Assembly: GCF_024972755.1 (NCBI RefSeq)
Contig: NZ_CP087724.1
Coordinates: 2,666,001-2,730,000 of the forward strand
DNA: 64,000 nt
Direction: 5' to 3'
Origin: Halanaeroarchaeum sp. HSR-CO
Lineage (GTDB): Archaea > Halobacteriota > Halobacteria > Halobacteriales > Halobacteriaceae
Below the pieces are notes generated by a model. That model did not search any database and was not told where the DNA came from. It saw only the letters and a program-made list of their open reading frames with translations. The translations under genes were made by a program, and so were the position numbers. Shown here piece after piece: positions 31,176 through 45,475 of this stretch (position 1 is the stretch's first letter; the number at the start of each line of letters is the position of its first letter).

Positions 31176-31216
31176 GTTATTTAACCCCGGACTATCTAAT
31201 TACGCATATTGGTGAG
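31176..31216 (+). promoter_or_regulatory. Promoter and ribosome binding site of hemA
   Basis: GTTATTTAA (31176-31184) is a TATA-like element. GGTGAG (31211-31216) lies 4 nt before the ATG at 31221 and favours that start over the in-frame TTG at 31209 and GTG at 31212. Confidence 0.5.
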
Positions 31217-31220
31217 CAGC

Positions 31221-32465
31221 ATGGAAGCTCTGCATGGGGCATTCGTCACGCACAGGCGAGCCTCACTCTCGACGATCGAAGCCGCACGGTCGGTCGACGT
31301 GGAAGCGACGCGCGAGCGATTGCTGGCCCATGGTGCCAGCGAGGCCTTCGTCCTCCAGACCTGCAACCGGGTGGAGCTGTACGTGCGCGGCCCGCCGACG
31401 ACCATCGCTCGGGAACTCGACCGGATCGAGGTGCCCGAGGAGGTCGTCGACCGGGCCCAGGGCGAAGCAGTCGCACGGCATGCCCTCCAGGTGGCTGCCG
31501 GCCTCGAGAGCATGGTCGTGGGGGAGGACGAGATCCTCGGCCAGTTCTCGACGGCCACGGAGCAGGCCCGCGAGGACCTCGGCGGCCCGCTGGAAACGGT
31601 CCTCGATAAGGCCATTCGTACGGGCAAACGCGTCCGCTCCGAGACCGCGATAAACGAGGGGCACGCCTCGATGGGGACGGCGGCCGTCGATCTCGCAAAT
31701 CGACGATTGGAGGGGCTCTCGGGGGCGACGGCACTCGTGGTCGGCGCAGGGGAGATGGGGCGAAGCGTCGCCGGTCCCCTCGCGGATCGGGGGGCCGAGG
31801 TCCTGGTCACGAATCGGACCTACGAGACCGCACGCGAACTCGCTGACGCGGTCGGGGCCACGGCGACCTGTTTCGACTCAGTGGCGAGTCGGTTCCCAGA
31901 CGTCGACGTCCTGTTCAGTGCCACGGACGCTCCACACCGGATCTTTGAGTACGACGACCTCCACGGGGAGCGCTTGCTCGCGATCGACCTGGCGAACCCA
32001 CGGGACATCGACGATTCCGTCGCCGAGGCGAGTGGGATCGACCTGTACGACATCGACGACATCGGTGCCGCCGTCGACGAGTCTATCGAACGCCGGGAAT
32101 CGGTCCGCGATCGGGCAGAGGCGATCGTCGAGTCCGAACTCGACCAGCTGGCGGACCTCCTCAAACGTCGCCGCGCGGACGAGATGCTGGGCCGCATCTA
32201 CAGCGAGGCCGAGCGGATCCGTCGCGAGGAGACCGAGCGAGCCATCGACTGCGTCGACGCCGACGTCGACGAGGCGGTCTTCGAGCAGTTCGCCTCCTCG
32301 ATCGTCAACCGCCTGCTCGCCACGCCGACGAAGTCGATCAAGGAGGCCGCGGCCGACGACGACTACGAGACCCTCGAGACCGTCTCGACGGTATTCCAGA
32401 TCGGCGAGTCCGCCGGGCATCGATCCGAGAACGCCGCGTCCTCACCATCCATCGAGAACTCATGA
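31221..32465 (+). CDS. hemA: Glutamyl-tRNA reductase
   Basis: A 414-residue NADPH-dependent enzyme that reduces glutamyl-tRNA to glutamate-1-semialdehyde, the committed step of tetrapyrrole synthesis. The catalytic Cys48 lies in LQTCNRVELY. GLESMVVGEDEILGQ, the AIRTGKRVRSETAI helix and the nucleotide-binding VVGAGEMGRSVA follow, then the C-terminal dimerisation helices. The stop codon overlaps the ccmE start by 4 nt, so heme precursor supply and cytochrome c maturation are translationally linked. In most haloarchaea hemA sits with other heme genes, so this placement is notable. Confidence 0.95.
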   Translation: MEALHGAFVTHRRASLSTIEAARSVDVEATRERLLAHGASEAFVLQTCNRVELYVRGPPTTIARELDRIEVPEEVVDRAQGEAVARHALQVAAGLESMVVGEDEILGQFSTATEQAREDLGGPLETVLDKAIRTGKRVRSETAINEGHASMGTAAVDLANRRLEGLSGATALVVGAGEMGRSVAGPLADRGAEVLVTNRTYETARELADAVGATATCFDSVASRFPDVDVLFSATDAPHRIFEYDDLHGERLLAIDLANPRDIDDSVAEASGIDLYDIDDIGAAVDESIERRESVRDRAEAIVESELDQLADLLKRRRADEMLGRIYSEAERIRREETERAIDCVDADVDEAVFEQFASSIVNRLLATPTKSIKEAAADDDYETLETVSTVFQIGESAGHRSENAASSPSIENS

Positions 32466-32845
32466 AACGAACCCATCGCATCCTCCTGGGCGCCATCGTG
32501 ATCGCCGTCCTCGTCGGGGTCGTCTCGACCTCGATGGGGACGACCACCGCAAAGGTCTCCCCGGGCGACCTCCAGTCCGGAGAGTACGACGGCGAGTACG
32601 TCATCCTCGAGGGGCTGGCGACCGACGTCCGAATCGGGAATACCGTTACCCTGACCGTGGTCGGCAATAGCTCAGAGACGCGCACGGTCGACGATAACGC
32701 CACCGAGGCGAGTGTCCCCGCGGTAGTCACTGACGATTCGATCCCGGCGACCCTCGAATCCGGCCGAATCGTCGTCCTCGAAGGTACCTACGACGACGGT
32801 CGGTTCGAGGCTTCCTCCGTGATGGTCAAGTCCCACGAGCAGTAA
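32462..32845 (+). CDS. ccmE: CcmE-like heme chaperone (short form)
   Basis: A 127-residue membrane-anchored OB-fold protein. It has an N-terminal helix (7-25) and the CcmE order of strands, ending ESGRIVVLEGTYDDGRFEASSVMVKSHEQ-stop when read in pieces. The final K-S-H-E segment aligns with the KHDE of bacterial CcmE, whose His binds heme covalently (His125 here). The Tyr that follows four residues later in bacteria is missing because the protein ends first. CcmE accepts heme exported with CcmABCD and hands it to CcmF. The 4-nt overlap with hemA and the other ccm genes nearby support the call. Confidence 0.83.
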   Translation: MKRTHRILLGAIVIAVLVGVVSTSMGTTTAKVSPGDLQSGEYDGEYVILEGLATDVRIGNTVTLTVVGNSSETRTVDDNATEASVPAVVTDDSIPATLESGRIVVLEGTYDDGRFEASSVMVKSHEQ

Positions 32846-32960
32846 CGCGACGCCACCGCGGACCCAGACTCGGTTGCCGGCGTACCACCGGTGACGCGTT
32901 GAAGGAGCAGGCGGCACCGAACGCCGATTCGCGTGGCGATCGACACCGAAAACGAGTGGC

Positions 32961-33065
32961 CTACAGCCGTTCTTCGAGGCGGGACAGCGAGCGCTGCAGG
33001 TAGTACTGGTAGCCGACGATCAGGGTGAAGACGATGCCGTACGCGACGAGGAGTTTGAGGTACAT
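32961..33065 (-). CDS. ccmD: CcmD-like micro-protein (34 residues)
   Basis: A 34-residue protein starting at ATG 33065, 2 nt after the ccmC stop. It consists of one helix (YLKLLVAYGIVFTLIVGYQYYL) cut at residue 23 and a basic/acidic tail ending RLEERL. This is the design of CcmD, the tiny subunit that joins CcmC and CcmE in the heme-handling complex. It is easily missed because of its size. Position right after ccmC makes the call likely although similarity at this length is weak. Confidence 0.75.
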   Translation of the reverse strand: MYLKLLVAYGIVFTLIVGYQYYLQRSLSRLEERL

Positions 33066-33067
33066 GG

Positions 33068-33751
33068 CTATCGACCTCCGGTTGCACAAATGACGGTGTC
33101 ACGGACTCGATGCACGCGATACCTGACCGCAGCGAGCGAGACGAACAGCACGGTCACCGCGACGATGGCCAGGAGTAACGCGGTCGGTTCGATGACGGTC
33201 CCACTCGATTCGGCCCCGACCGTCGGATCGTGAAACGCCGGGTTCCACAGCCGGGTCGAGACGTAGGAGACCGGAATGGTGACGAACCCGAGCACGCCGT
33301 AAGCGGCGGCGAACCGGTCCTCGGAATCGCGTGTCGCCGCGAACACCAGCAGGTACCCGAGATAGACGAGCCAGGTGATGAACAGCGTCACGAGCCTGAC
33401 GTCGCCCCACGACCAGTAGGTCCCCCACATCTCGCTGCCCCAGATACTTCCCATCGCGAGCGTGCCGGTCAGGAACACGAAGCCGACCTCCCCGGTGCTG
33501 TGAGCCAGGAGGTTGAACCGGCGGGTTCTGGTGTGGAGGTACCACGCGCTCGCCCCGAAGGTGATCAGGAGTGCGACACCGCTCACCCAGGCCAGGGCGA
33601 TATGCCAGTACCCGATGTAGTTCACGGGGGCCACGACGCCGTACATGCGCGGAGTCGTGAACACGAACATCGCGACGAACGAGGCCAGCCCGAAGAGGAG
33701 CGCGCCGGCCGGGAGAACGGCGGTATCGCGAATGGTCTTCGATGCGCCCAT
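33068..33751 (-). CDS. ccmC: Heme-handling protein CcmC
   Basis: A 227-residue membrane protein of six helices. The Trp-rich WWD-type motif, IWGSEMWGTYWSWGD (about 103-117), binds heme and is flanked by external histidines (His50 in YWHIALAW, His84 in AHSTGEVG, His174 in NPAFHDP). CcmC loads heme on CcmE. The ATG at 33751 is preferred over a 15-codon longer form. It is transcribed with ccmD and divergent from the tetraheme cytochrome gene, with 82 nt between starts, so heme delivery and its client are probably co-regulated. Confidence 0.92.
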   Translation of the reverse strand: MGASKTIRDTAVLPAGALLFGLASFVAMFVFTTPRMYGVVAPVNYIGYWHIALAWVSGVALLITFGASAWYLHTRTRRFNLLAHSTGEVGFVFLTGTLAMGSIWGSEMWGTYWSWGDVRLVTLFITWLVYLGYLLVFAATRDSEDRFAAAYGVLGFVTIPVSYVSTRLWNPAFHDPTVGAESSGTVIEPTALLLAIVAVTVLFVSLAAVRYRVHRVRDTVICATGGR

Positions 33752-33759
33752 ACGCGAGA

Positions 33760-33772
33760 CGAGCGGGGCTCG
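33760..33772. promoter_or_regulatory. Candidate operator: 5-3-5 inverted repeat between ccmC and tetraheme gene
   Basis: CGAGC, GGG and GCTCG form a short perfect inverted repeat just upstream of ccmC in the 82-nt divergent region. In this GC-rich sequence it could be chance. Confidence 0.25.
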
Positions 33773-33801
33773 AAGGATAACGTTTGCCCCTCGCAACCGG
33801 A

Positions 33802-33811
33802 GTTTTATACT
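33802..33811 (+). promoter_or_regulatory. TATA element of the tetraheme cytochrome operon
   Basis: GTTTTATACT lies about 27 nt upstream of the ATG at 33834. This fixes the start there and implies a leaderless transcript for the operon of tetraheme, Fe-S and NrfD-like genes. Confidence 0.6.
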
Positions 33812-33833
33812 GAAGGCGGTACGTGGACGAAAT

Positions 33834-34532
33834 ATGGGCAGTCAGCAGGATCACCCAGCCGTAGTTACGACGTTCTTGCTGGTACTCGCCGTCGTCGGCG
33901 TGTTTACCGGCATCGCCACCGCAGGCGGTGGAACTGGCCCGCCCGGGGCGGGCGGCGAGGACGTCGCCACCCCGGACGCACACGCTACCGCGTTCGAAGA
34001 GGACTGGCCGTCGGCCGACGAGGAAGCGACGTGCGAGCGGTGTCACGCGACGATGGAGACGAACCGAACGCCTCGCGACCTCGAAAACGAGGTGAAATAC
34101 CAGCCCAACCACGAATTCGACCTCGAACACGCCGATGGACAGTGGTGTCTGGACTGCCACGCGGCGGACAACATGAACGAACTTCGGCTGCCGAACGGCA
34201 GCACCGTCGCGTGGACGACCGAAAACGAGACCAAGCAGTGTGCGTCCTGTCACGGCCCGGTCTACGAGGACTGGACCAACCAGGTGCATGGAAAGTGGAC
34301 GGGTTCCTACGAGGAGCCGGTCCCGGATAAGTACTGTACGGACTGTCACGACCCACACGATCCCGAGTTCCACGCGATCGAGCCAGACCCAGCCCCCGAG
34401 GAACCGCCCGCCGGCCCCGCGGTCGCCCAGGCCGTGTTGCCGGGTGGCTACTACGCGGCAGTCGGGCTCGCCGGGACGCTGATCGCGGGACTCCTCGGGT
34501 ACGCGGCACTCGATCTCAGGAGGCGACCATGA
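33834..34532 (+). CDS. Membrane-anchored tetraheme cytochrome c
   Basis: A 232-residue cytochrome with an N-terminal hydrophobic segment (10-30), four CxxCH heme sites at residues 67, 105, 136 and 168, and a C-terminal helix (about 204-226) ending in RRRP. It lies in one operon with an NrfC-like and an NrfD-like gene, with its stop overlapping the next start by 4 nt. That is the place of NrfB or similar small multiheme carriers, so it probably takes electrons from the Fe-S subunit and gives them to the octaheme enzyme. It does not look like an NrfH or NapC homologue, which have the hemes right after an N-terminal anchor. Confidence 0.88.
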   Translation: MGSQQDHPAVVTTFLLVLAVVGVFTGIATAGGGTGPPGAGGEDVATPDAHATAFEEDWPSADEEATCERCHATMETNRTPRDLENEVKYQPNHEFDLEHADGQWCLDCHAADNMNELRLPNGSTVAWTTENETKQCASCHGPVYEDWTNQVHGKWTGSYEEPVPDKYCTDCHDPHDPEFHAIEPDPAPEEPPAGPAVAQAVLPGGYYAAVGLAGTLIAGLLGYAALDLRRRP

Positions 34533-35560
34533 GTGATTCCACGACCGATCCCGGTGTACCGGACGCGGACGACGACGGCGTCGACGAGGACCGCCGACAC
34601 GTACTGAAAGCCACGGCCGGCGCGGCTACCTTCGCCATCGGCGGGGTAGCAGCGTCACAGCAGCCCGAAGCAGCCGATCTCCTCCAGAAACATTACAAGA
34701 AAATGGACGCGACGGAGCGAGAACAGCTCGTCGATAGACTGGAGTCGCGTCTCCAGGAGGAGTACGATACACCGGAGATCGAGGTCTCGACGACGAAGCC
34801 ACCTGACGACACCGTGTTCGGATACGCGTTGAACGTCGAGGCCTGTATCGGGTGCCGGCAGTGCGTGTACGCGTGCGCGGATGAGAACAATATCTCTCGT
34901 GAGACCGAGGAGAACCCGGCGTCGAACCAACTCCACTGGATCCGGGTCCTCCGCTTCGAAGACTCCGAGATCGAGGTCGACCCCGAGGGAGACGGGCCGA
35001 TCGGGATGGACGTCTCCAGCGAGTTCGGCGACGTCTCCGCCGGGGTCGACTGGGAGGAAAGCGATCACTACTACGATCCGGAGGCGGTGCCCGAAGAGGA
35101 CGCCTGGTATCTCCCCGTCCAGTGCCAGCAATGCGAGGACCCATCCTGTACCGAGGTGTGTCCGGTACAGGCGACCTGGAAGGAAAAGGACGGGATCGTC
35201 GTCGTCGACTACGATCGGTGTATCGGCTGCAAGTACTGTGTGACCAACTGCCCGTACGACGCCCGACGGTTCAACTTCAGCCACCCCGAACTCCCCGACG
35301 ACGAGGTCAACCCCGAGATGCATTATCTGGGGAACCGTCCCCGACCGGGGGAGGTCGTCGAGAAGTGCACGTTCTGCGTCCAGCGGACCCGCGAGGGGGA
35401 GTATCCGGCCTGCGTCGACGCGTGTCCGGTCGGGGCCCGAAAATTCGGCAACCTCCTCGACGAATCCGGCGAGATCCGGACGATCCTCGACGAGAAGCCG
35501 GTGTTCCGACTCCGTCCGGAACTCGGGACCGAACCGAAGTTCTTCTACTTCACGGAGTAG
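34529..35560 (+). CDS. NrfC/PsrB-like protein with four 4Fe-4S clusters
   Basis: A 343-residue electron-transfer subunit. A twin-arginine motif (EDRRHVLKATAGAAT) near residue 22 suggests export in folded form. The Cys groups are CIGCRQCVYAC, CQQCEDPSCTEVCP, CIGCKYCVTNCP and CTFC...CVDACP, enough for four 4Fe-4S clusters as in NrfC, PsrB and DmsB. There is an insertion of about 50 acidic residues between the first two groups. It overlaps the tetraheme gene by 4 nt and precedes the NrfD-like gene by 4 nt, so the three proteins form one quinol-to-heme electron path. Confidence 0.93.
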   Translation: MSDSTTDPGVPDADDDGVDEDRRHVLKATAGAATFAIGGVAASQQPEAADLLQKHYKKMDATEREQLVDRLESRLQEEYDTPEIEVSTTKPPDDTVFGYALNVEACIGCRQCVYACADENNISRETEENPASNQLHWIRVLRFEDSEIEVDPEGDGPIGMDVSSEFGDVSAGVDWEESDHYYDPEAVPEEDAWYLPVQCQQCEDPSCTEVCPVQATWKEKDGIVVVDYDRCIGCKYCVTNCPYDARRFNFSHPELPDDEVNPEMHYLGNRPRPGEVVEKCTFCVQRTREGEYPACVDACPVGARKFGNLLDESGEIRTILDEKPVFRLRPELGTEPKFFYFTE

Positions 35561-35564
35561 TACC

Positions 35565-36839
35565 ATGTCAACGCCACAGACCTCGACACGGAGTACCACC
35601 CGGCGCCTCGCATCGTTCCTGAAAGCCGGCGTGACCCACGCACTGACGGGTTCGACCCGCTATTACGCCTGGCTCGCCGCCCTCGCGATCGGGATCGTGC
35701 TCGGACTGTACACCTACGCCCAGCAGGTCCAGCACGGTCTCATCATCACGAGCGCCCGCCACCTGAACCCGTGGGCCACGCTCGCGTATGCCCAGTTCCC
35801 CTTCTTCGACGGGATCGCGGCCGGTGCGATCGTCGTCGTCGCCATCGCGTACGTCTACGCGCGGCCGGACTTCGAGTCGGTCGCGGTCTTCGGGTGGGCG
35901 CTGGCCGTCAGCGGAGCGATCGTCTCCATCGCGAGCGTTCTTTCGATGCTGGGAAGTCTGGAGCGACTCGTCTACATCTTCCCCATCGTGGGGACGCCGA
36001 ACTTCCCAATGTCGATGCTACCCTGGGACGTCGTCGTACTCAACGGCTTCCTGCTAGTCGCACTGGTCGTTCCCGGGTACGTGCTCTTCAAACGCTATCA
36101 CGGCGAACGACCCCATCCCTGGGTGCGATACGGGGCGTACCTCGCGGTGGCCGGTGCCCTGGCGCTGCAGGCGGTCGTCGCGGCGATCATCATCGTCAAT
36201 CCGATCCGGAGCCTGTGGTACACCGCGCTGATGGTGCCGCGATTCATCACGAGCGCGGCCGCCGCTGGGTCCGCTCTCGCCATCCTCGTGCTCCTGGCGA
36301 TCCGCCGGTCCGCGTCGGGGGCGCTCGCCCTGACCGACATCGACATCGAGGATCGGACCCTCTCGACGCTTGGCCACGTAGTTGTCATCGCTCTCGCGGT
36401 GAACGTCTTCGCCGTGCTCTCCGAGATATTCATGCTCACGTGGACGGGGACCGAACACGGCCTCACGATGCAGTATCTCCTCTTCGGTCTGGACCACGCC
36501 GGCACGACCTACAACATGCTGACGCCGGTCATGTGGCTCTCCATCGCGCTCGAGGTCGGGGCCCTCCTCCTCTTGCTCCATCCCCGCGCCCGGCGGCACA
36601 TCCGGACGCTCTCGATCGGGGCCGGAGCAGCCTTCCTCGGCGTCTTCCTCGAGAAAGGGGTCATCCTGTTCATCTCGGTGTTCGTCGTCTCGCCACTGGG
36701 CGAGGTGTACGAACCGTCCTTTACCGTCCCCGAAGTCGTCATGGCCGGGGCGATGTGGGCGCTCGGCGCGCTCGTGTTCACCCTGCTCGCGAAGGCGGCG
36801 ATCGGTATCAGGACCCGGGATTCGGCCGAAAACTTTTGA
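35565..36839 (+). CDS. nrfD: NrfD/PsrC-like quinol-oxidising membrane subunit
   Basis: A 424-residue membrane protein with about nine to ten helices, of the NrfD/PsrC/HybB type. Recognisable parts are FFDGIAAGAIVVVAIAYV in the second helix, the acidic residue in LSEIFMLTWTG, the ALEVGALLLLL helix and the LEKGVILFISVFV segment near the end. Such proteins exchange electrons between the quinone pool and a bound Fe-S subunit and may move protons. It has no heme ligands of a cytochrome b. The preceding Fe-S and tetraheme genes are its expected partners. A 66-nt gap separates it from the next gene. Confidence 0.92.
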   Translation: MSTPQTSTRSTTRRLASFLKAGVTHALTGSTRYYAWLAALAIGIVLGLYTYAQQVQHGLIITSARHLNPWATLAYAQFPFFDGIAAGAIVVVAIAYVYARPDFESVAVFGWALAVSGAIVSIASVLSMLGSLERLVYIFPIVGTPNFPMSMLPWDVVVLNGFLLVALVVPGYVLFKRYHGERPHPWVRYGAYLAVAGALALQAVVAAIIIVNPIRSLWYTALMVPRFITSAAAAGSALAILVLLAIRRSASGALALTDIDIEDRTLSTLGHVVVIALAVNVFAVLSEIFMLTWTGTEHGLTMQYLLFGLDHAGTTYNMLTPVMWLSIALEVGALLLLLHPRARRHIRTLSIGAGAAFLGVFLEKGVILFISVFVVSPLGEVYEPSFTVPEVVMAGAMWALGALVFTLLAKAAIGIRTRDSAENF

Positions 36840-36905
36840 AACGGTATTACCTTTCTTCGTACACGAGTCGGCAGTGGCGAGTCTTCACGCCGACGACGTA
36901 GAGAT

Positions 36906-37346
36906 ATGAATCGAAAACTAGTGTTGACCGGCGGTTTCGTCGCAGTGCTGCTCGTCCTGGCCATCGGCACCTCCATGACGATGCTCTCGGGAGAAGCCGA
37001 CAGGCACGGCGGTATCGACTGGGAAAGCGACGTCGACGCGGCACTGACGGAGGCGAACGAGACGGAGACGCCACTCCTATTGTACGTCTGGATGGACGAT
37101 TGCGGGGCCTGTGAGGACTTCGGCGCCCGTCTCGCGGAGGACCGACCGGCGGCCCTTGACGCGTACGTGCTCGCGGAGACCGACCTTGGCTCCGAATCCA
37201 CTGCGGAGCAGTACGGCGTCTCGGCCACGCCGACGCTCGTCGTGATCGCCCCAGACGGGACGAAGGTAACGACCATCAACCCGGTCGCGGTGGACGACCT
37301 CGACGAGCGGCTCGACCGGGCTCACGAGAACGCGAGTGACCCCTAA
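36906..37346 (+). CDS. Membrane-anchored thioredoxin-like protein
   Basis: A 146-residue protein with an N-terminal membrane anchor (about 6-27) and an outside thioredoxin domain. The redox pair is CGAC (Cys66, Cys69) in VWMDDCGACEDF, and the cis-Pro is in VSATPTLVVI. The gene lies 3 nt before ccmF, so it probably reduces or presents the heme-binding cysteines of apocytochrome, a job that CcmG and CcmH share in bacteria. It could also act like the DsbD C-terminal domain. No CcmH gene is visible, which makes this protein a candidate replacement. Confidence 0.85.
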   Translation: MNRKLVLTGGFVAVLLVLAIGTSMTMLSGEADRHGGIDWESDVDAALTEANETETPLLLYVWMDDCGACEDFGARLAEDRPAALDAYVLAETDLGSESTAEQYGVSATPTLVVIAPDGTKVTTINPVAVDDLDERLDRAHENASDP

Positions 37347-37349
37347 GTT

Positions 37350-39662
37350 ATGATCGGCACAGCATTACAGTACGGCGCGGCGGTAGCGGGATTCGGTGCG
37401 GTGATCGCCCTCTGGTACGCGAACCGGGAGGCCGAGTACGCCCGATACGGCGTCTACTTGCTCGGCACGGCGAGTCTCCTGGCGGTGCTTGCGCTGTTCT
37501 ACCTCGTCAATCAGTTCCTCGTCACCGACTACACGAACGGATACGTCTGGAACCACACCGCCGACTATCTCTCGACGCTCTACCGGATCACCGGTGTCTA
37601 CGCGGGCGTCGAGGGGTCGCTGTTGCTCTGGGCGACCCTGGTGGCGCTCATCGCGTACTGGGTCGTCCGCTCCGGGGTGGAAACCGCCGACGAACGCCTC
37701 GTCGCAGCCATCGTGACGACCGTGGCGACGGTCATCCTGGCGTACTCGATTACCCGTACGCCCTTTACCGCCCTGGACATCAGTGGGCGTGGGACGGCGT
37801 TCGGTCCTGTGGGGCTGAATCCGCTGTTGAAGAGCCCGTACATGATAATCCACCCGCCAGTGACCTTCGCAGGCTACGCGCTGACGACAGTCCCGTTCGC
37901 GATCGGGGCGGCCCACTTCATTCGGAAGAGCCGTGGCCGGGACGGAATCTTCGAGCAGAGGCTTCCCGAGGCGACCCGATGGCTCCGCCTCGCCTGGTGG
38001 TTTCTCACCGCCGCCGTGGCACTCGGCGCCCTCTGGTCGTACACGACCCTCGGCTGGGGCGGTCTCTGGGCCTGGGACCCCGTCGAAACCGCGATCCTCG
38101 TGACCTGGTTGTTCGTGACGGCCGCGATGCACGCCGTCTCCAACTACCGGTTACGTGGGGCGAATCCCGTCCTTGCTCCCGCGATGGCAACCCTCACCTT
38201 GCCGAGTGCCATCTTCGCGCGGGTGATTACCCAGTCGGGCACGTCGGATCTCCACTCCTTCGCCAGCGGCTCCCCGACAGTGCTGGTCGTCTTGCTGGCG
38301 GTGTCCCTCGCCATCGGCGTGGGACTGCCCTTCTACGTCTGGATTCGACGGCCGGAATCGCAAACGGAAACGACGGGGATACTCTCCCACCACCGGCTGC
38401 TTTACGCTGGAATCCTCACTATCGGCTTGCTCACGTTCGTCTCGTTCTGGGGGATCACCTTCCCCCTGCTACAGACGCTCCTCGGAGGCCCGGAGGTTAG
38501 CGTGGGCGTCGACTTCTACAACATGTGGAGTTTTCCCCTCGTGGTCGTCGTGTTGCTCGCGATCGGCTTTTACAATGATTTCGACGTCAGAGGCGAGGAC
38601 GCCGGTCGGCTGCTCGGGGCCGTCGTCGTGTTGTCCCTCGTGGCCGCCGTGATTCCGCTCTCCGAGTGGCAGTTCAACCCGGCGAAGACGGGCGGGTACT
38701 ACGGTCTCGTCGGGAGCCTCAACGCGTTATCCCTGTTTCCGCCGGCCGCCTATGCCATCGGCGCGACGCTCTCCAGGCTCGCCGTCCGACTGCCGTCGCT
38801 GCCCGATCGCGACCGCCAGCTGACCCTGGGGGGCGTCGGTCTCGTCCACATCGGGCTGGCGGTGATCGTGCTCGCGACGCCGTTCACCTACATGTTCGCG
38901 GTCTCCGGGTCCGGCATGGTTCCGGCAGTCTCGATGGGTCACGAGGACGGCGTGACCCTGGACGAATCGCCGTACACCGTCGCGGTCGAGAACTACTCCA
39001 GCGACTACATCGAAAGCGACCTGTCGCTCTCGGCGGTCGAACGCGAGGCGGTCCTCGATCGAATCGACGACAGGGCCTACCGGGCCGATTCGCTCCCCGA
39101 ATCGGCCAGCGGCGATCAGATCGTCTACGGATCCATCACGGACCTGCGGATAGAGGACGGTACCGGAATCGCGCAGCTCGACAACTCCTCCGTGTGGGTC
39201 GACGTCGGGCCGGCCGGTAACAACACGAGCGTCGAGGGCGTGCCGATCTACGCCCAGGGAACCATCAACCGGTCGATGGACGAGATGACCTTCGTGCGGA
39301 CCGACGGCATGTTCGTCGGCACGCAACCGACCGGGGCGATCGTCCCGGACAGCCGTGCGAGCGACCGCGAGGTCGAGTTCGTCGTCTCTCAAGGGAACGA
39401 GACCCTTGCTGTCGGCTCCACGGACGTCGAGACGTATCTCACCTACGGGGCCGTCGCGAACCCATACGTGGACCGCGGTCTGTTCTCGGACACGTACGTC
39501 GCGGCCAAGCAGGTGCAGTTCACCGGGGGCATGCCGGTAGTCTACATCCTCGTCAAGGAAGTGCCGCTGATGAGCGTGGTCCGCTTCGGCATCGTGCTAT
39601 TGCTCCTCGGCGGGGCGATGCTCGCCGCCGCGACCCCACGGAGCCGTCACGGGGGTGAGTGA
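37350..39662 (+). CDS. ccmF: Cytochrome c heme lyase CcmF
   Basis: A 770-residue membrane protein of at least twelve helices, the synthetase that joins heme to the CxxCH motifs. The heme-handling WWD motif GWGGLWAWDPVE is at residues 235-246. VWNHTADYLSTLYR, the EGSLLLW helix and the HPPVTFAGYAL histidine region follow the family order. A soluble outside domain lies near the C-terminus (about 525-730) before the last helix. The gene comes directly after the thioredoxin-like gene and before a lipoprotein gene. Length and motifs are complete, so this should be functional. Confidence 0.95.
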   Translation: MIGTALQYGAAVAGFGAVIALWYANREAEYARYGVYLLGTASLLAVLALFYLVNQFLVTDYTNGYVWNHTADYLSTLYRITGVYAGVEGSLLLWATLVALIAYWVVRSGVETADERLVAAIVTTVATVILAYSITRTPFTALDISGRGTAFGPVGLNPLLKSPYMIIHPPVTFAGYALTTVPFAIGAAHFIRKSRGRDGIFEQRLPEATRWLRLAWWFLTAAVALGALWSYTTLGWGGLWAWDPVETAILVTWLFVTAAMHAVSNYRLRGANPVLAPAMATLTLPSAIFARVITQSGTSDLHSFASGSPTVLVVLLAVSLAIGVGLPFYVWIRRPESQTETTGILSHHRLLYAGILTIGLLTFVSFWGITFPLLQTLLGGPEVSVGVDFYNMWSFPLVVVVLLAIGFYNDFDVRGEDAGRLLGAVVVLSLVAAVIPLSEWQFNPAKTGGYYGLVGSLNALSLFPPAAYAIGATLSRLAVRLPSLPDRDRQLTLGGVGLVHIGLAVIVLATPFTYMFAVSGSGMVPAVSMGHEDGVTLDESPYTVAVENYSSDYIESDLSLSAVEREAVLDRIDDRAYRADSLPESASGDQIVYGSITDLRIEDGTGIAQLDNSSVWVDVGPAGNNTSVEGVPIYAQGTINRSMDEMTFVRTDGMFVGTQPTGAIVPDSRASDREVEFVVSQGNETLAVGSTDVETYLTYGAVANPYVDRGLFSDTYVAAKQVQFTGGMPVVYILVKEVPLMSVVRFGIVLLLLGGAMLAAATPRSRHGGE

Positions 39663-39665
39663 CCG

Positions 39666-40412
39666 GTGCGGGACGTGGCCCTGGTCGCCCTCCTTGTCCT
39701 GGGTTTGCTCGCGGGCTGTGCGGGCGAGCCGACCACGGACGCGCCGGACCCCGAGTCCGTCGACTACCCGGACGGATTCGGTCAGGAGGGGATCACCGAC
39801 ACCGAGACGGCCTCCGAGACCCACCGCCAGTCGCTCGAGGAACCCTACCGGGTCGCGTTTCGGCTCAGACAGATCGATGCGCGCGGCGCGGTGACGACTA
39901 CCGGAAACGTCTCCGTACGGCCGGACGACCGTCGTTATCACGTCGAGGTCGATCAACGGGCAGCCACCGAGACCCAGGGTTACGAACGCTATCACGTCGA
40001 CGGCGCCGTTTACGTACGGACCTCGTCCGCTCAAGAGTCCGAATACGAGCGACGAAACGAGTCGTTCTCCCGGCCGGTGTACGCCGACCGCGAGACGTTC
40101 GTGACGATGCTGGCCGACCTCTCCCTCAACGCCACCGAGGTCAGGGTCGAGAACGGGACCGAACTCGTCGTCTACCGCGTGACGAACGTGAGCAGTCCCC
40201 GCATCGGGTCGACGACGGAGGCGGCGAACGGCACGGTCCTCGTGGACACCGGGGGGACGATCCGGTCGATGAACGTCTCCTTTACGCGGACGTCGCAGGG
40301 AATCGACCGGGAGACGACCTTCCGATACGACGTGACGACCGAGGCTGACGTGGAGATCGAGCGGCCGGGGTGGACTGACCTCGCCGAGACCGGCGATTCA
40401 GCGCAGGAGTGA
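39666..40412 (+). CDS. Haloarchaeal lipoprotein A, unknown function
   Basis: A 248-residue secreted lipoprotein. It starts with GTG 4 nt after the ccmF stop. The lipobox LLAGC puts the anchored cysteine at about residue 18. The domain carries pieces such as YRVAFRLRQIDARGAVTTTGN and a VYRVTNV strand that recall haloarchaeal DUF7537-type lipoproteins. The start codon position right behind ccmF suggests co-transcription and a possible role in cytochrome maturation or electron transfer outside the cell. A related protein lies at 41242-42180. No cofactor motif is seen. Confidence 0.8.
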   Translation: MRDVALVALLVLGLLAGCAGEPTTDAPDPESVDYPDGFGQEGITDTETASETHRQSLEEPYRVAFRLRQIDARGAVTTTGNVSVRPDDRRYHVEVDQRAATETQGYERYHVDGAVYVRTSSAQESEYERRNESFSRPVYADRETFVTMLADLSLNATEVRVENGTELVVYRVTNVSSPRIGSTTEAANGTVLVDTGGTIRSMNVSFTRTSQGIDRETTFRYDVTTEADVEIERPGWTDLAETGDSAQE

Positions 40413-41159
40413 GGCCAGGACTATCGGCAGGTGGGCCATCACGTGGCCGACCATGGCGACCTCTAGCGCGTACGCCCAGAACAGCCAGCCGAACACCAGT
40501 CCCGGAACCGCGTTCACAACGAAGACCCGGGCGGCGGTCGCCGCCCCGACGGCACCCGGAGCGGGGGCCATGAGCAGTGCGGCCCCGATGGCGACGACGG
40601 CGATCGACCCGATTGCAACCGTTCGCCCGGAGGAGTCGGAATTCGCGACGTCGAACCACCCGAACCCAAAGGACGCCACCAGGGAGACCAGCCCCCAGCG
40701 GAGGACCAGTTCCTGGCCCACACCGAGGTACACGAGCCGCCCGATCGCTGCGAGGGCGTACGCCAGCGGGCTACGGGCCCCGGTGCCCAGCGGCACGCCG
40801 GACGCCAGGTTCTCGGCGAGCACGACGAACCCGACGACGAGCCCCGCGCCGCCGCCGAGCACCCAGGCGCGCCCGTCGGGTACCTCGAATGCCCCCGACC
40901 GCCCCCACTCGTGGACGATGGAGTGAAAGCCGGTGTGATCTGCCACCGCGGCGCCAGCGAGAGCGCCCACGACGACTATCACCGCGGGGGCGGCCAGCTG
41001 ACTCAGGAGGGCCTGCCGTAGCAGACCCGTGCGAACGCCCGAGACGAAGGTCAGCTGGGCGAGGATCGTTGCCGCAAGTCCCATGACACCGAGCGCGGCG
41101 AGTGCGAGCATCGCGCCGTACCCCGAGAGACGCGACTGCAGTGCTGACGATGGCTGCAT
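40398..41159 (-). CDS. CPBP-family membrane protein (catalytic motif altered)
   Basis: A 253-residue membrane protein of about seven helices, of the CPBP/Abi family of intramembrane metalloproteases. The usual EExxxR motif reads QELVLR (Gln149, Glu150, Arg154), so the first glutamate is lost. The second site keeps its histidine-bearing helix, AMVGHVMAH near residues 235-243. A loss of the first Glu may make it a non-catalytic member. It lies between the two lipoprotein genes on the opposite strand, and its 3' end overlaps lipoprotein A by 15 nt. Whether it helps in maturation of the cluster's proteins is unknown. Confidence 0.78.
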   Translation of the reverse strand: MQPSSALQSRLSGYGAMLALAALGVMGLAATILAQLTFVSGVRTGLLRQALLSQLAAPAVIVVVGALAGAAVADHTGFHSIVHEWGRSGAFEVPDGRAWVLGGGAGLVVGFVVLAENLASGVPLGTGARSPLAYALAAIGRLVYLGVGQELVLRWGLVSLVASFGFGWFDVANSDSSGRTVAIGSIAVVAIGAALLMAPAPGAVGAATAARVFVVNAVPGLVFGWLFWAYALEVAMVGHVMAHLPIVLASLLR

Positions 41160-41241
41160 ACTCGATGGTCGGCCGACGCCGGCAAAAAGGCCCCGATAGG
41201 GACCACAAGTTCTTATTGAGCGGCGACCCTTGGACTACGCG

Positions 41242-42180
41242 ATGAATCGAGCGCGAGCCGCGAGTATCGCCGTCGTCGCGCTGGTGATCCTGGCCGGGTG
41301 TGCGGGCGGGGGCCCCGCCGACCCGTCGACCGGGACGACGACGGTATCCGAAGAGCAGGGATCGACGACTGACGAATCGGCCGATGACGGCGATGAGTGG
41401 ACGCTGTTCGAGTCGGAACCCACGTCGATGGACGGCGTCGACGACGCGGCGGTGAAGCGGGAGACGGTTCGATCGCTTGCCGCAGTCGATAGCTACCGGC
41501 TCAACGGGACCGTAGAGCGAACCCTCCGGATGCCGGGGGATTCGATCGAGTCGAAGGTTACCTCCCAGGGGGTCGTCGACCGGGAGTCCCGGTCGCTACG
41601 GCTCCACGAGAATACGACGGGACACATGCAGACCGTCGAGACGCGACTCCGCGTGGTCGACGGAGCACTCTATCAGTCCTACGACGCCCAGCACCACGAT
41701 TCCGACGGCGACTGGCAGCGGTCGTCCATCAGCGATTCCACCTTGCGGAGCCTCGACCCGCTCGCCCGGCAAACACGGATGCTCGAAAACGCGACGGTCG
41801 TGGTGACGAACACGACCACGATCGACGGCACCGAGGCGTACGTCCTCTACGCCGACGTGAACGAATCGGTATATGCGACAGAACAGGACCGGCAACTCGG
41901 AGACCAGCCCCTCCAGGTGACCGAGGTGACATACCGATATTACGTGGCGACCGACACCCATCGTCTGCTCGAGGCCGACGGGATCGTCCGCGGGACGGTC
42001 CAGAGCGGGAACGAGACGGTCGAACTCGCCGAACAATACGACATCGCGATCGCGGATTACGGGACGTCCGTCGACGTGACCGCCCCCGAAGTGACTGCCG
42101 AGGCGACGACCGCGAACGATACAGACGCCACCACCGCGACGGCCACGACGACCGCGAATCCATCGGCGAGCGCCGGGTGA
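41242..42180 (+). CDS. Haloarchaeal lipoprotein B, unknown function
   Basis: A 312-residue secreted lipoprotein. The ATG at 41242 is supported by a TTCTTATTGA element about 30 nt upstream. The signal ends at a lipobox LAGC, with the modified Cys at about residue 22. A low-complexity acidic linker is followed by a folded domain with YRLNGTVERTLRMPGDS and VDGALYQSYDA, and the protein ends in a Thr/Ala-rich stretch. It shares its design with lipoprotein A (39666-40412), so the two are probable paralogues. The function is unknown. Its 3' end is 8 nt from the convergent ccmB gene. Confidence 0.8.
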   Translation: MNRARAASIAVVALVILAGCAGGGPADPSTGTTTVSEEQGSTTDESADDGDEWTLFESEPTSMDGVDDAAVKRETVRSLAAVDSYRLNGTVERTLRMPGDSIESKVTSQGVVDRESRSLRLHENTTGHMQTVETRLRVVDGALYQSYDAQHHDSDGDWQRSSISDSTLRSLDPLARQTRMLENATVVVTNTTTIDGTEAYVLYADVNESVYATEQDRQLGDQPLQVTEVTYRYYVATDTHRLLEADGIVRGTVQSGNETVELAEQYDIAIADYGTSVDVTAPEVTAEATTANDTDATTATATTTANPSASAG

Positions 42181-42188
42181 GCGCTCGA

Positions 42189-42836
42189 TCAGGCGACCAG
42201 TTCTTCGAACACCAGCAGGCCGCCCGTGAACACGATTCCGTCGTAGCCGGCGAGGACGGTGAGCCAGTTCCAGCCCTCGGCACCGAACAGCGCGATGCCC
42301 GCCAGTAGCGCCGGGATAATGAGCGGAACGAGTAACACGGGAACGAGCAGATCGCTGATCGAGGTGTAGATCGTCATCGAGGCGATCACCACCGCGACGG
42401 CGGCGAACCCGACGGCGAACAGCACGACGACGAGAACGAGGACGGGGATCGGGGCCGCCGGCGCCGTCCCGAGGAACACGCGGGTCGCCAGTACGGTGAA
42501 CAGACCGACGAGCGAGACGTACACGGCCCCGCTCAAAACTTTGCCCACGTAGATGGCCGAGTACGGGACGGGAGCCAACAGCAATCCGTCGAGAGCGCCG
42601 TTTTCACCCTCGATGCCGACGCTCTGCATCACCCCCAGGGTGCCGGCGAACACGAACGCGACCCAGACGGCACCGGCGTGATGGCGGCCGTCGAAGGCGA
42701 ACGCGAAGACGACCACGACGAGCAGCGAGAGTGCCGCCGCCATGGGCAACGCGCGTTTCGCCCGCGCCTCCAATCGGAAGTCCTTCGCGGCGACGGCCCA
42801 GACCACGCGAGCGTACCGGCGGGCGTCCGCGATCAC
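42189..42836 (-). CDS. ccmB: Heme exporter membrane subunit CcmB
   Basis: A 215-residue membrane protein with six helices. The opening AVAAKDFRLEARAKRAL, the GIEGENGALDGLLLAPV segment after helix 2 and the final helices fit CcmB, the permease part of the CcmAB ABC complex that works with CcmC to release heme-loaded CcmE. It overlaps ccmA by 4 nt and follows it in one operon. The position on the strand opposite to ccmF and ccdA shows that the ccm set is spread over several units. Confidence 0.9.
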   Translation of the reverse strand: MIADARRYARVVWAVAAKDFRLEARAKRALPMAAALSLLVVVVFAFAFDGRHHAGAVWVAFVFAGTLGVMQSVGIEGENGALDGLLLAPVPYSAIYVGKVLSGAVYVSLVGLFTVLATRVFLGTAPAAPIPVLVLVVVLFAVGFAAVAVVIASMTIYTSISDLLVPVLLVPLIIPALLAGIALFGAEGWNWLTVLAGYDGIVFTGGLLVFEELVA

Positions 42837-43510
42837 GCGACGACCTCCCGATACCGATTCCGAAGCGTCTCGGGGCCGTCGACCGGGCCCTCGATCCGAG
42901 CGACGATCCGCCCCTCGTCGAGGACGAGATATCGCTCACAGAGTCGGGCACTGAGGTCCTGCTCGTGGCTGACCAGCACGACCGTCCGGTCGGCCATCAT
43001 CGATCGCAGTGTGGCGCGCGAGTGCTGGTCGAGCCCCGTGAACGGTTCGTCCAGAAGCAGGACCGCTGGATCCGCGAGCAACGCCCGGGCGAAGGACAGC
43101 CGTTTTTGCATCCCGTGGGAGAACTCCCGGGGAAAGCCGTCGGCCCGATCGGCGAGATCGACGGTCTCGAGGACCGCCCCGACCCGTTCGGCGTCGACGC
43201 CGAGGAGCCGGGCGTGAAACGCGAGGTTCTCCCGCGCGGTCAGGTCGTCGTAGAGCATCGATTCGTGGGAGAGATACCCGATCGACCCGTCGGCCCGCCC
43301 CGATCGACTGTACTGGTCGACGCCATCGACCGCGACGGTCCCCGAACTGGGGGTGGCGAGACCGGCGAGCATCCGGAGCAGGGTCGTCTTCCCCGAGCCG
43401 TTCGGGCCGAGTATTGCCACGGATTCGCCCGTCCGGACGGACAGCGAGACGCCGTCGACCGCGGTGAAGGGGCCGAACCGCTTCGACACCTCGTCGGCGA
43501 CGAGCTTCAT
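42833..43510 (-). CDS. ccmA: Heme exporter ATP-binding subunit CcmA
   Basis: A 225-residue ABC ATPase. It has Walker A GPNGSGKTT, the Q-loop segment YLSHESMLYDDLTARENL, the signature FSHGMQKRLSFARALL with a divergent first residue group (SHGMQ in place of SGGQ), Walker B VLLLDEPFTGLD and the switch His in VLVSHE. The SHGMQ signature and the ATG at 43510 are typical of CcmA. A longer in-frame opening upstream is rejected because homology begins at KLVADEV. It powers release of heme from the CcmC-CcmE complex. Confidence 0.92.
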   Translation of the reverse strand: MKLVADEVSKRFGPFTAVDGVSLSVRTGESVAILGPNGSGKTTLLRMLAGLATPSSGTVAVDGVDQYSRSGRADGSIGYLSHESMLYDDLTARENLAFHARLLGVDAERVGAVLETVDLADRADGFPREFSHGMQKRLSFARALLADPAVLLLDEPFTGLDQHSRATLRSMMADRTVVLVSHEQDLSARLCERYLVLDEGRIVARIEGPVDGPETLRNRYREVVA

Positions 43511-43544
43511 CGGTCGACGGTTCGTCCGCGGCGAACTTAAACAC

Positions 43545-43566
43545 CGGTTGATCGATGGGACAACCG
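43545..43566. promoter_or_regulatory. Candidate operator between ccmA and the zinc-motif gene
   Basis: CGGTTG and CAACCG form a perfect inverted repeat with a 10-nt spacer that itself contains ATCGAT. It lies directly upstream of a TATA-like TGTTTAAGTTC of ccmA (minus strand, about 43532-43542), the usual place for an activator or BRE-adjacent factor in haloarchaea. Confidence 0.4.
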
Positions 43567-43594
43567 TTAGGCGACTGGAAGTCGTCGTTCGACC

Positions 43595-44293
43595 ATGAAC
43601 CGCGACCCGCCATGGTTCGACGACGGGCCGCCGACCGACGTCCTCGAGACGATCCGCGATCGGCGGGATACCGCCTCTGCACACCGAGAAGCGTTCGAGG
43701 AGGCGATGGAAGCACAGGAGTACAGCGCCGCAATCGAGGCAAAGCGCGCTTACCAGTTGGCCGTCTTCAAACGACGGCAGGCCGAGGGCGAACTCCTCTG
43801 GACCGCACTCGGGCACGCCATCGCAGACGTCGCGGCGTCCTTCGATCCGGACGCGGCCGCCGTCGAACGTCGCGGTGCGGCCTTCGTCCGCTGGGCCATC
43901 GACGCCGACGTTCTCGCGTCGATCGACTCGCGTGATCGTCTCCTCCTGGTCGTCGCTCGTCGCTCGCCGACGCTACCCGCCGCGCACGCTCCCTACGCCG
44001 AATCCATGTTCGGCGTCTCACGTGAAGACATCGCGACCAAACGGGAGCGAGATCAGTCCCGGCTGAGTGCGGCGGGCTGGAAGCGCGAGACGGGGCGAGG
44101 CGGGGCGGTCGGTCTCGTGACCTGTCCCAACTGTGACGGCCGATTTCCTGTTCGTCGATCGACCGGGGCATCGGCGACGATCTCGGCCACTTTCGATGGG
44201 GGGGACGACGCGATGCACGAGTTCTGTCCACACTGCGAGAGCGACGTCTACGTGCGCATCTCGCCACCCGACCGTGAACGTAATGGCAAATGA
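43595..44293 (+). CDS. Unrecognised protein with C-terminal zinc-ribbon-like motif
   Basis: A 232-residue soluble protein without signal or membrane segment. The first 70 residues form a charged helical region (EAFEEAMEAQEYSAA). The C-terminal third has two CxxC pairs, CPNC at 177-180 and CPHC at 211-214, the geometry of a zinc ribbon. The gene is divergent from ccmA and is followed by the TlpA-like and CcdA genes within 16 nt, so it belongs to the maturation cluster by context. I know no family for it. It could be an RNA- or DNA-binding regulator, or a redox-sensitive zinc protein. Confidence 0.7.
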   Translation: MNRDPPWFDDGPPTDVLETIRDRRDTASAHREAFEEAMEAQEYSAAIEAKRAYQLAVFKRRQAEGELLWTALGHAIADVAASFDPDAAAVERRGAAFVRWAIDADVLASIDSRDRLLLVVARRSPTLPAAHAPYAESMFGVSREDIATKRERDQSRLSAAGWKRETGRGGAVGLVTCPNCDGRFPVRRSTGASATISATFDGGDDAMHEFCPHCESDVYVRISPPDRERNGK

Positions 44294-44309
44294 GTTCCAA
44301 CCGTCGGGT

Positions 44310-44822
44310 ATGAATCGGCGGGAGTACCTCCTCGGTGGAGCGGGCGCACTCGCCGCCCTCGCGGGAGGATACGCGTTTACGCGCGGACCGCTGGGGACGA
44401 CCCGCGTCGAAGCCCATTCGATCCCGGTGCTCGGGGATTCGGGGTGGACCTCGCAATCTATCCCCACCGCTGACGGCCTGACCCTCGTCGATTTCTTCTC
44501 GACGTACTGTTCGGGCTGTACGCGACAGATCGATGCACTGGAACCGGTCGTCGCGGATGCGCCGTCCGCAGCTTCGTTCGTCTCGGTGACCACCCAGCCC
44601 ATCGGTGAGGAGTTTACTCGGGCGGATCTCCGCGAATGGTGGGCGAGTCACGGCGGACCGTGGCCGGTCGGCATCGACGACGGCGCCCTCGCGAACGCGC
44701 TGGGGGTGGAGCGCCTTCCAACCCTCGTCTTGCTCGATGGGGTGGGGCGTGTGGAGTGGTCCCACGCCGGGGTTGCGGAGACCGACGCGATCCGGGAGGG
44801 GCTCGCGGAGGCGACGCGATGA
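44310..44822 (+). CDS. TlpA/CcmG-like exported thioredoxin
   Basis: A 170-residue thiol-disulfide protein. A Tat-like signal (NRREYLLGGAGALAALAGG) leads to a thioredoxin domain with redox pair CSGC (Cys67, Cys70) in DFFSTYCSGCTRQ and a cis-Pro in VERLPTLVLL. An alternative ATG at 44283 adds nine residues and would overlap the previous gene. The stop overlaps the ccdA start by 4 nt. CcdA feeds electrons to this class of proteins, which keep apocytochrome cysteines reduced before heme attachment. Confidence 0.88.
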   Translation: MNRREYLLGGAGALAALAGGYAFTRGPLGTTRVEAHSIPVLGDSGWTSQSIPTADGLTLVDFFSTYCSGCTRQIDALEPVVADAPSAASFVSVTTQPIGEEFTRADLREWWASHGGPWPVGIDDGALANALGVERLPTLVLLDGVGRVEWSHAGVAETDAIREGLAEATR

Positions 44823-45475
44823 TCGGGGGGGCCTCGTCGACCCTCTCGGCGTTCTCCGCGGGCCTCGCGACCTTCTTCGCCCCCTGTGCGTTCCCGCTGC
44901 TCCCTGGGTACGTAGGCTACTATACACGAACCGTCGACGAGGAGACGCCGCTCGCTGGGGCCGCGCTCCGGGGACTGGCGGGAAGCGTGGGGGTGTTGTT
45001 CGCGTTCGGCGGGATCGCGGCTCTGGTCTTCGCCCTCGGCCGTTCGATCGTCCGGGCGGTCTACGCGCTCGAGCCACTGGTCGGACTGGCCCTGGTCGGA
45101 ATCGGCGTCCTCCTGCTCGTGAACCGGTTTCCGACGCTGCACGTTCAGCTCCCCGAGCGACGCACGAGCGTCGCGGGATTCGCGCTATTCGGCACCGGCT
45201 ACGCCGTCTCGGCGACAAGCTGTTTCGCCCCGCTCTTTTTCGCCGTGGTCCTCGGTGCAGCAACGTCGCCGGTCGGGACCGTGACCGCCACGGCCGCCTT
45301 CGGGCTCGGGCTCGCGATCCCCCTATTCGTCGCGACGATCCTGGTCGGGATCGGCCACGACATAGGCGCGGGATCGATCCCCGCCTACGCCAACCGGGTC
45401 GAGCAGCTGGCCGGTATCGTGATCGTGGCCGCGGGACTCTGGCAACTCACCACTACCGTTCATCTCTGGCTCTGA
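44819..45475 (+). CDS. ccdA: Thiol-disulfide transporter CcdA
   Basis: A 218-residue membrane protein with six helices. The two transport cysteines sit in helix 1 and helix 4 in the family motifs FFAPCAFPLLPGY (Cys23) and SATSCFAPLFF (Cys135). CcdA passes electrons from cytosolic thioredoxin across the membrane to proteins such as CcmG. The 4-nt overlap with the TlpA-like gene gives a coupled pair, as in many System I and II clusters. Start ATG at 44819; the 3' end overlaps a small converging gene by 16 nt. Confidence 0.94.
   Translation: MIGGASSTLSAFSAGLATFFAPCAFPLLPGYVGYYTRTVDEETPLAGAALRGLAGSVGVLFAFGGIAALVFALGRSIVRAVYALEPLVGLALVGIGVLLLVNRFPTLHVQLPERRTSVAGFALFGTGYAVSATSCFAPLFFAVVLGAATSPVGTVTATAAFGLGLAIPLFVATILVGIGHDIGAGSIPAYANRVEQLAGIVIVAAGLWQLTTTVHLWL

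Follow-up and report, generated by a model that had tools for sequence, protein, structure and literature searches.

How can heme be attached to c-type cytochromes by a System I maturation apparatus that has no CcmH? We address this question in a 64,000-nucleotide stretch of DNA (the window, to which all positions below refer) from the haloarchaeon Halanaeroarchaeum sp. HSR-CO (contig NZ_CP087724.1, positions 2,666,001 to 2,730,000), whose genome (2.79 Mb, 2 contigs) is 100% complete. Pfam and NCBIfam matches show that homologues of the System I core proteins CcmA, CcmB, CcmC, CcmE and CcmF are all present together, and the rest of the set listed in the first-pass annotation is also borne out: a CcmD-like open reading frame (ORF; recognized from its location, size and hydropathy), a TlpA/CcdA pair and another thioredoxin, at coordinates that were correct within the choice of start codon. 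Our collective results suggest that haloarchaea probably use a System I variant that is built on a distinct CcmF and in which a DsbD-gamma-like thioredoxin, encoded directly upstream of ccmF, keeps the apocytochrome reduced in place of CcmH.

The absence of CcmH was upheld by a search for a homologue elsewhere in the genome. PF03918 had no match in the whole 2.79-Mb genome or in 146 relatives (control genomes were positive in both cases), and an archaeal CcmH profile gave no match in this genome and matched 0 of 19 named haloarchaea, but did match two Methanoperedens-type genomes that were searched together with those 19. A CcmH too divergent to be recognized could be encoded outside the locus, as the protein is small and the archaeal copies that we found are divergent; we regard this as very improbable, since the same two profiles detect CcmH in Methanoperedens and Archaeoglobi genomes and detect nothing here. 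An archaeal lack of CcmH was reportedly described by Allen and coworkers in 2006. The absence as such is already known, hence it is not the new part of our findings: System I* was described without CcmH (Stevens 2011, PMC3601427), CcmH in archaea was seen only in Ferroglobus (Kletzin 2015, PMC4429474), archaea without CcmH are also mentioned by Gupta 2022 (PMC9084895), and, according to Chadwick 2022 (PMC9012536), CcmH among anaerobic methanotrophic archaea (ANME) is restricted to ANME-2d.

What distinguishes the locus is the gene in front of ccmF. In the window, the thioredoxin stop codon and the ATG of ccmF are separated by 3 nucleotides, and a comparison of archaeal ccmF neighbourhoods, which the first-pass annotation had proposed, revealed that the thioredoxin is conserved at this 5' position and alternates with CcmH as the neighbour of CcmF. 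Within 20-kb neighbourhoods of ccmE-bearing relatives it lies directly 5' of every on-contig ccmF, although the order and the strand of the other ccm genes vary there. When 84,980 species genomes were scanned with a CcmF alignment, 80 loci were obtained, and all haloarchaeal ones among them (19/19) had the thioredoxin directly 5' of ccmF, as did all haloarchaeal ccmF loci examined (about 30 genomes). The same placement was found in Methanoperedens, other Methanosarcinales, Hydrothermarchaeota and one Nanohaloarchaeon, and the CxxC motif is invariant (59/59 ccmF-linked thioredoxins).

The thioredoxin and CcmH accompany different kinds of CcmF. The former adjoins 57 of 64 long CcmFs and none of the 15 CcmH-linked ones. 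In the neighbourhoods that could be read, CcmH stood directly 3' of a short, insert-free CcmF (646-677 residues) in 15 cases and was never seen next to a thioredoxin-linked CcmF in the loci read; having been collected via CcmH, these loci do not sample short CcmFs at random. Some Methanoperedens genomes hold both versions, a short CcmF with CcmH and a long CcmF with the thioredoxin; at one locus (L066) thioredoxin, long CcmF, CcmE, short CcmF and CcmH lie within 6 kb. In five Methanoperedens loci (L155, L156, L160, L161, L163), the short CcmF is followed by a pair of CcmH-family genes spaced about 2 kb from each other. In the CcmF tree, the thioredoxin-linked sequences form one group (Shimodaira-Hasegawa-like approximate likelihood ratio test, SH-aLRT, 98) with one loss of the thioredoxin, and the CcmH-linked sequences form another (support 99). 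Moreover, in an even sample of the phylum (392 genomes), from which the 15 insert-bearing CcmF loci with the best matches and the 15 insert-free loci ranking next were taken, the thioredoxin was found 5' of 15/15 insert-bearing and 0/15 insert-free CcmFs; this sample shares some genomes with the earlier sets, and common descent makes the counts non-independent. By sequence, then, one CcmF clade has this thioredoxin as its conserved and dedicated partner. Neither the pairing nor the insert is described in the reachable literature, a scope that leaves subscription papers outside, and the pairing of an OB-fold CcmF with its own thioredoxin, in a CcmH-free CcmF branch, appears to be new.

The CcmF encoded in the window carries the WWD motif (GWGGxWAWDPVE) and, in the alignment, four histidines (H168, H261, H302 and H500) which, by what is known of E. 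coli CcmF, we take to be the heme ligands. Motif and histidine positions identify it as a CcmF heme lyase, for which attachment activity is predicted. In the CcmF at L024:2388-4775 the histidine of the conserved HPP reads PPP, being either a sequencing error or a variant. Long and short CcmFs differ in the last extracellular domain, where the median distance between two anchors is 164 versus 49 residues; the insert in thioredoxin-linked CcmFs is about 90 residues long. In the AlphaFold model of this domain of the window CcmF (predicted local distance difference test, pLDDT, 78), the host domain corresponds to the periplasmic domain of Thermus CcmF (6zmq 513-607, Z 9.4) and is split by a predicted OB fold with the five-stranded arrangement (residues 51-140 of the modelled domain), which resembles the OB domains of AspRS/AsnRS and Stn1/Ten1 (Z ~9). 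Foldseek alone gave weak matches (best E 1.7e-3). Since CcmE is an OB protein too, descent of the insert from CcmE was considered and rejected (hhalign probability 29%, E 6e-4; CcmE not among the structural matches listed).

The thioredoxin itself points to a role in electron supply. The best solved relative of the family by sequence profile is the DsbD C-terminal domain (5e-13), and TIGR00385 (CcmG/DsbE) was not among its family matches. The structural model (pLDDT 83) reaches Z ~13 with DsbD-gamma and Z 14 with 3f9u, a Bacteroides cytochrome-biogenesis-related domain; by fold, DsbD-gamma (Z 13) ranks level with other proteins of the thioredoxin superfamily fold (Z 13-14). Having a thioredoxin fold, a CxxC motif and its closest sequence relative in the DsbD C-terminal domain, the protein most likely acts as a DsbD-gamma-like reductant.

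Several observations weigh against a dedicated reductant of this kind. The window thioredoxin is divergent, with CGAC where WCxYC is expected; neither a natural CcmF-thioredoxin fusion nor interaction evidence was found; and insert and thioredoxin became associated once in evolution and stayed together, rather than repeatedly and independently. CcmFs with neither CcmH nor a thioredoxin beside them are numerous in archaea and also occur in some bacteria, and in three Argoarchaeum/GoM-Arc1 genomes (L062, L072, L079) the thioredoxin is truncated or interrupted by stop codons while the OB-CcmF is intact. In addition, Methanosarcina acetivorans, which has a split CcmF, was unaffected by deletion of ccmG and ccdA (PMC9084895). 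To judge by the broken copies and the CcmFs with neither partner, loss of the thioredoxin is tolerated, at least by strict anaerobes, which agrees better with a reductant than with a presenter that cannot be spared.

The same observations bear on the first-pass proposal that the thioredoxin took over from CcmH. Its premises stand, namely that CcmH is absent and that a dedicated partner alternates with it; the takeover of the CcmH step itself does not follow from them, given the CcmFs with neither partner and the three intact ones beside broken thioredoxins, and a reductant is simpler. Plain compensation for the loss of CcmH is weakened on the same grounds. A stronger form, in which thioredoxin and OB insert truly replace CcmH, a mixed disulfide holding the apocytochrome and presenting it to CcmF, would account for CcmH and thioredoxin being mutually exclusive neighbours of CcmF even within one genome, and for the invariant CxxC; we consider it rather unlikely, as the Argoarchaeum CcmFs have no intact thioredoxin beside them and CcmFs with neither partner exist, which implies that some manage without the CcmH step. 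Those two facts, together with the sufficiency of CcmABCEF in Methanosarcina, where ccmG and ccdA deletions gave no phenotype (PMC9084895), would suit a streamlined archaeal synthase in which CcmF alone is complete and the thioredoxin is an auxiliary reductant needed only under oxidising conditions. We give this explanation some weight, short of thinking it probable: the pairing with one CcmF clade persists though the other ccm order is lost, and goes hand in hand with a structural insert in CcmF for which a general reductant would have no use. Finally, the CcmH step could be performed by an unrecognized protein such as the DUF7537 lipoprotein that begins 3 nucleotides past the ccmF stop codon. 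This is hardly to be expected, as no relative of it lies beside ccmF in other haloarchaeal loci, and it was rejected as a CcmF partner for that reason.

The heme chaperone of these archaea is also unusual. The window CcmE ends in VMVKSHEQ (His125 at 32834-32836), a motif with neither Cys nor Tyr, and is an extreme case in that it terminates two residues past the invariant histidine. All 32 distinct haloarchaeal CcmE sequences read (V/I)(R/K)(A/S)H(E/N) and lack both a Cys and a Tyr at +4, whereas 33 of the 34 other CcmE sequences of the set contain CxSKY. A gap-free profile alignment that included E. coli CcmE and the structures 8ce8, 1sr3 and 2kct places Ala or Ser at the His130 position and the invariant histidine one residue later. 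Hence, the haloarchaeal sequences (32/32) have neither the HxxxY motif of System I, their histidine being shifted by one with no Tyr at +4, nor the CxxxY motif of System I*, in place of which they have (A/S)H. Loss of the heme-binding residue, suggested by Ser at the His130 position, was rejected because the relatives show an invariant histidine at the next position; this displaced histidine presumably binds heme. An HxxxH form of CcmE in two halobacteria is said to appear in the abstract of Allen 2006; a second histidine is not general among the haloarchaeal CcmEs compared (n=32). Judged from these alignments, archaeal CcmE is not universally CxxxY, contrary to PMC9084895.

A CcmD-like one-helix ORF directly follows ccmC at 39 of 44 loci, and such ORFs were found after ccmF in 0/110, after ccmB in 2/41 and after the thioredoxin in 1/64 control positions. 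The Pfam CcmD family (PF04995) has no haloarchaeal match and one Archaeoglobal match below the cut-off (16.8 bits), which may be why the haloarchaeal ORFs were overlooked. Candidate CcmD-like ORFs thus occur in many archaea, contrary to the statement that CcmD is universally absent (PMC9084895).

We propose the following scheme. CcmABC and the CcmD-like subunit would load heme onto CcmE via its displaced histidine, and CcmE would pass it to CcmF; the families are established, and the transfer is what we infer. In DsbD, the gamma domain receives its electrons from a membrane domain that resembles CcdA. By analogy, CcdA most likely carries electrons from the cytosol across the membrane to the thioredoxin, which at CcmF would maintain the CxxC of the apocytochrome in its reduced state. 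Docking of the thioredoxin is likely to occur on the OB insert, because insert and thioredoxin coincide. The TlpA-like protein encoded beside CcdA, a CcmG candidate, could share the reductant task.

Coordinates of the ccm genes and neighbouring features in the window.
Feature	Position	Strand	Basis or remark
Octaheme cytochrome c (8 CxxCH)	29328-31115		best solved relative 4qo5, 6e-52
hemA (glutamyl-tRNA reductase)	31209-32465	+	TIGR01035, 290 bits, over cut-off
ccmE (127 residues)	32462-32845	+	PF03100, 28.8 bits, above cut-off
ccmD-like membrane ORF (34 residues), directly 3' of ccmC	32961-33065	-	position, length, hydropathy
ccmC, WWD-type heme handling membrane protein	33068-33751	-	PF01578, 86 bits; TIGR01191, 81 bits, below cut-off
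Consecutive genes for a tetraheme cytochrome, an iron-sulphur protein and NrfD	33834-36839		between ccmC and the thioredoxin-ccmF pair
Membrane-anchored thioredoxin, CGAC (Cys66/Cys69), 5' of ccmF	36906-37346	+	PF13899
ccmF (770 residues)	37350-39662	+	PF01578 and PF16327; 6zmq, 4e-54
Predicted OB-fold insert in CcmF, residues ~571-660, last extracellular domain	39060-39329	+	AlphaFold model, VIA-align
DUF7537 lipoprotein	39666-40412
DUF7537 lipoprotein	41245-42180
ccmB	42189-42836	-	PF03379, 55 bits
ccmA	42833-43510	-	TIGR01189, 139 bits, over cut-off
TlpA/ResA-like exported thioredoxin (CSGC), CcmG candidate	44283-44822	+	PF08534; TIGR00385 (dsbE) 26 bits, below cut-off of 123
CcdA-like membrane electron transporter	44819-45475	+	PF02683 (DsbD_TM), 19.9 bits, below cut-off

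CcdA is the weakest identification in the set. The 4-nucleotide overlap between the hemA stop and the ccmE start may couple heme synthesis with the heme chaperone; in the relatives' loci that were read, hemA does not adjoin ccmE. A haloarchaeal replicon (G023:C2, loci L019 and L020) contains two closely similar ccm clusters separated by about 166 kb. The octaheme and tetraheme cytochromes encoded beside the ccm genes are candidate substrates, and the genes between ccmC and the thioredoxin likely form a quinol-linked module for the octaheme enzyme. None of the other 145 relatives has a match to the octaheme gene, whose closest solved relative, 4qo5, we take to be the octaheme protein of Ignicoccus hospitalis; according to earlier work, multiheme cytochromes are missing from haloarchaea (PMC4429474).

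Compared with E. coli System I (CcmABCDEFGH and DsbD), the locus shares the CcmF core with its WWD motif, CcmD after CcmC, CcdA/DsbD-type electron supply and a His-type CcmE; it differs in lacking CcmH, in the shift of the CcmE histidine by one with no Tyr, and in a thioredoxin that resembles DsbD-gamma rather than CcmG and adjoins CcmF. This thioredoxin has the DsbD C-terminal (gamma) domain (4ip6/2fwe) as its closest sequence profile and among its closest folds, but stands alone, membrane-anchored and encoded with ccmF, instead of being fused to DsbD. System I* of Desulfovibrio and many archaea (PMC3601427) has the same CcmABCEF core and likewise no CcmH, yet its CcmE is of the CxxxY type, in place of the displaced histidine without Cys or Tyr found here, where CcmF also has an OB insert and a dedicated thioredoxin. 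The CcmABCEF1F2 system of M. acetivorans also lacks CcmH and CcmI in an archaeal envelope; it differs in its split CcmF, its CxxxY CcmE and the absence of any reported CcmD (PMC9084895). Split CcmFs of that kind had neither an OB insert nor an adjacent thioredoxin in our even sample, so that the organism represents a different branch. Gupta 2022 (PMC9084895), who gave archaeal CcmE as universally CXXXY and CcmD as universally absent, left open whether CcmD, CcmH and CcmI are replaced by unrelated proteins or are not needed; the question of archaeal heme attachment without CcmH, open in 2022, now gains a named candidate partner and domain. In ANME, several CcmF versions per genome and the CcmH of ANME-2d are known (PMC9012536); the accessible part of that work does not mention the thioredoxin pairing and the OB insert, which here serve as clade markers. 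Tentatively, we speculate that there may be a second archaeal cytochrome c synthase, with an OB-CcmF, an obligate thioredoxin, the CcmH step carried out by different chemistry and a displaced-His CcmE, and that some Methanoperedens run both synthases for different cytochromes. Methanoperedens with both CcmF versions offers a natural within-genome control.

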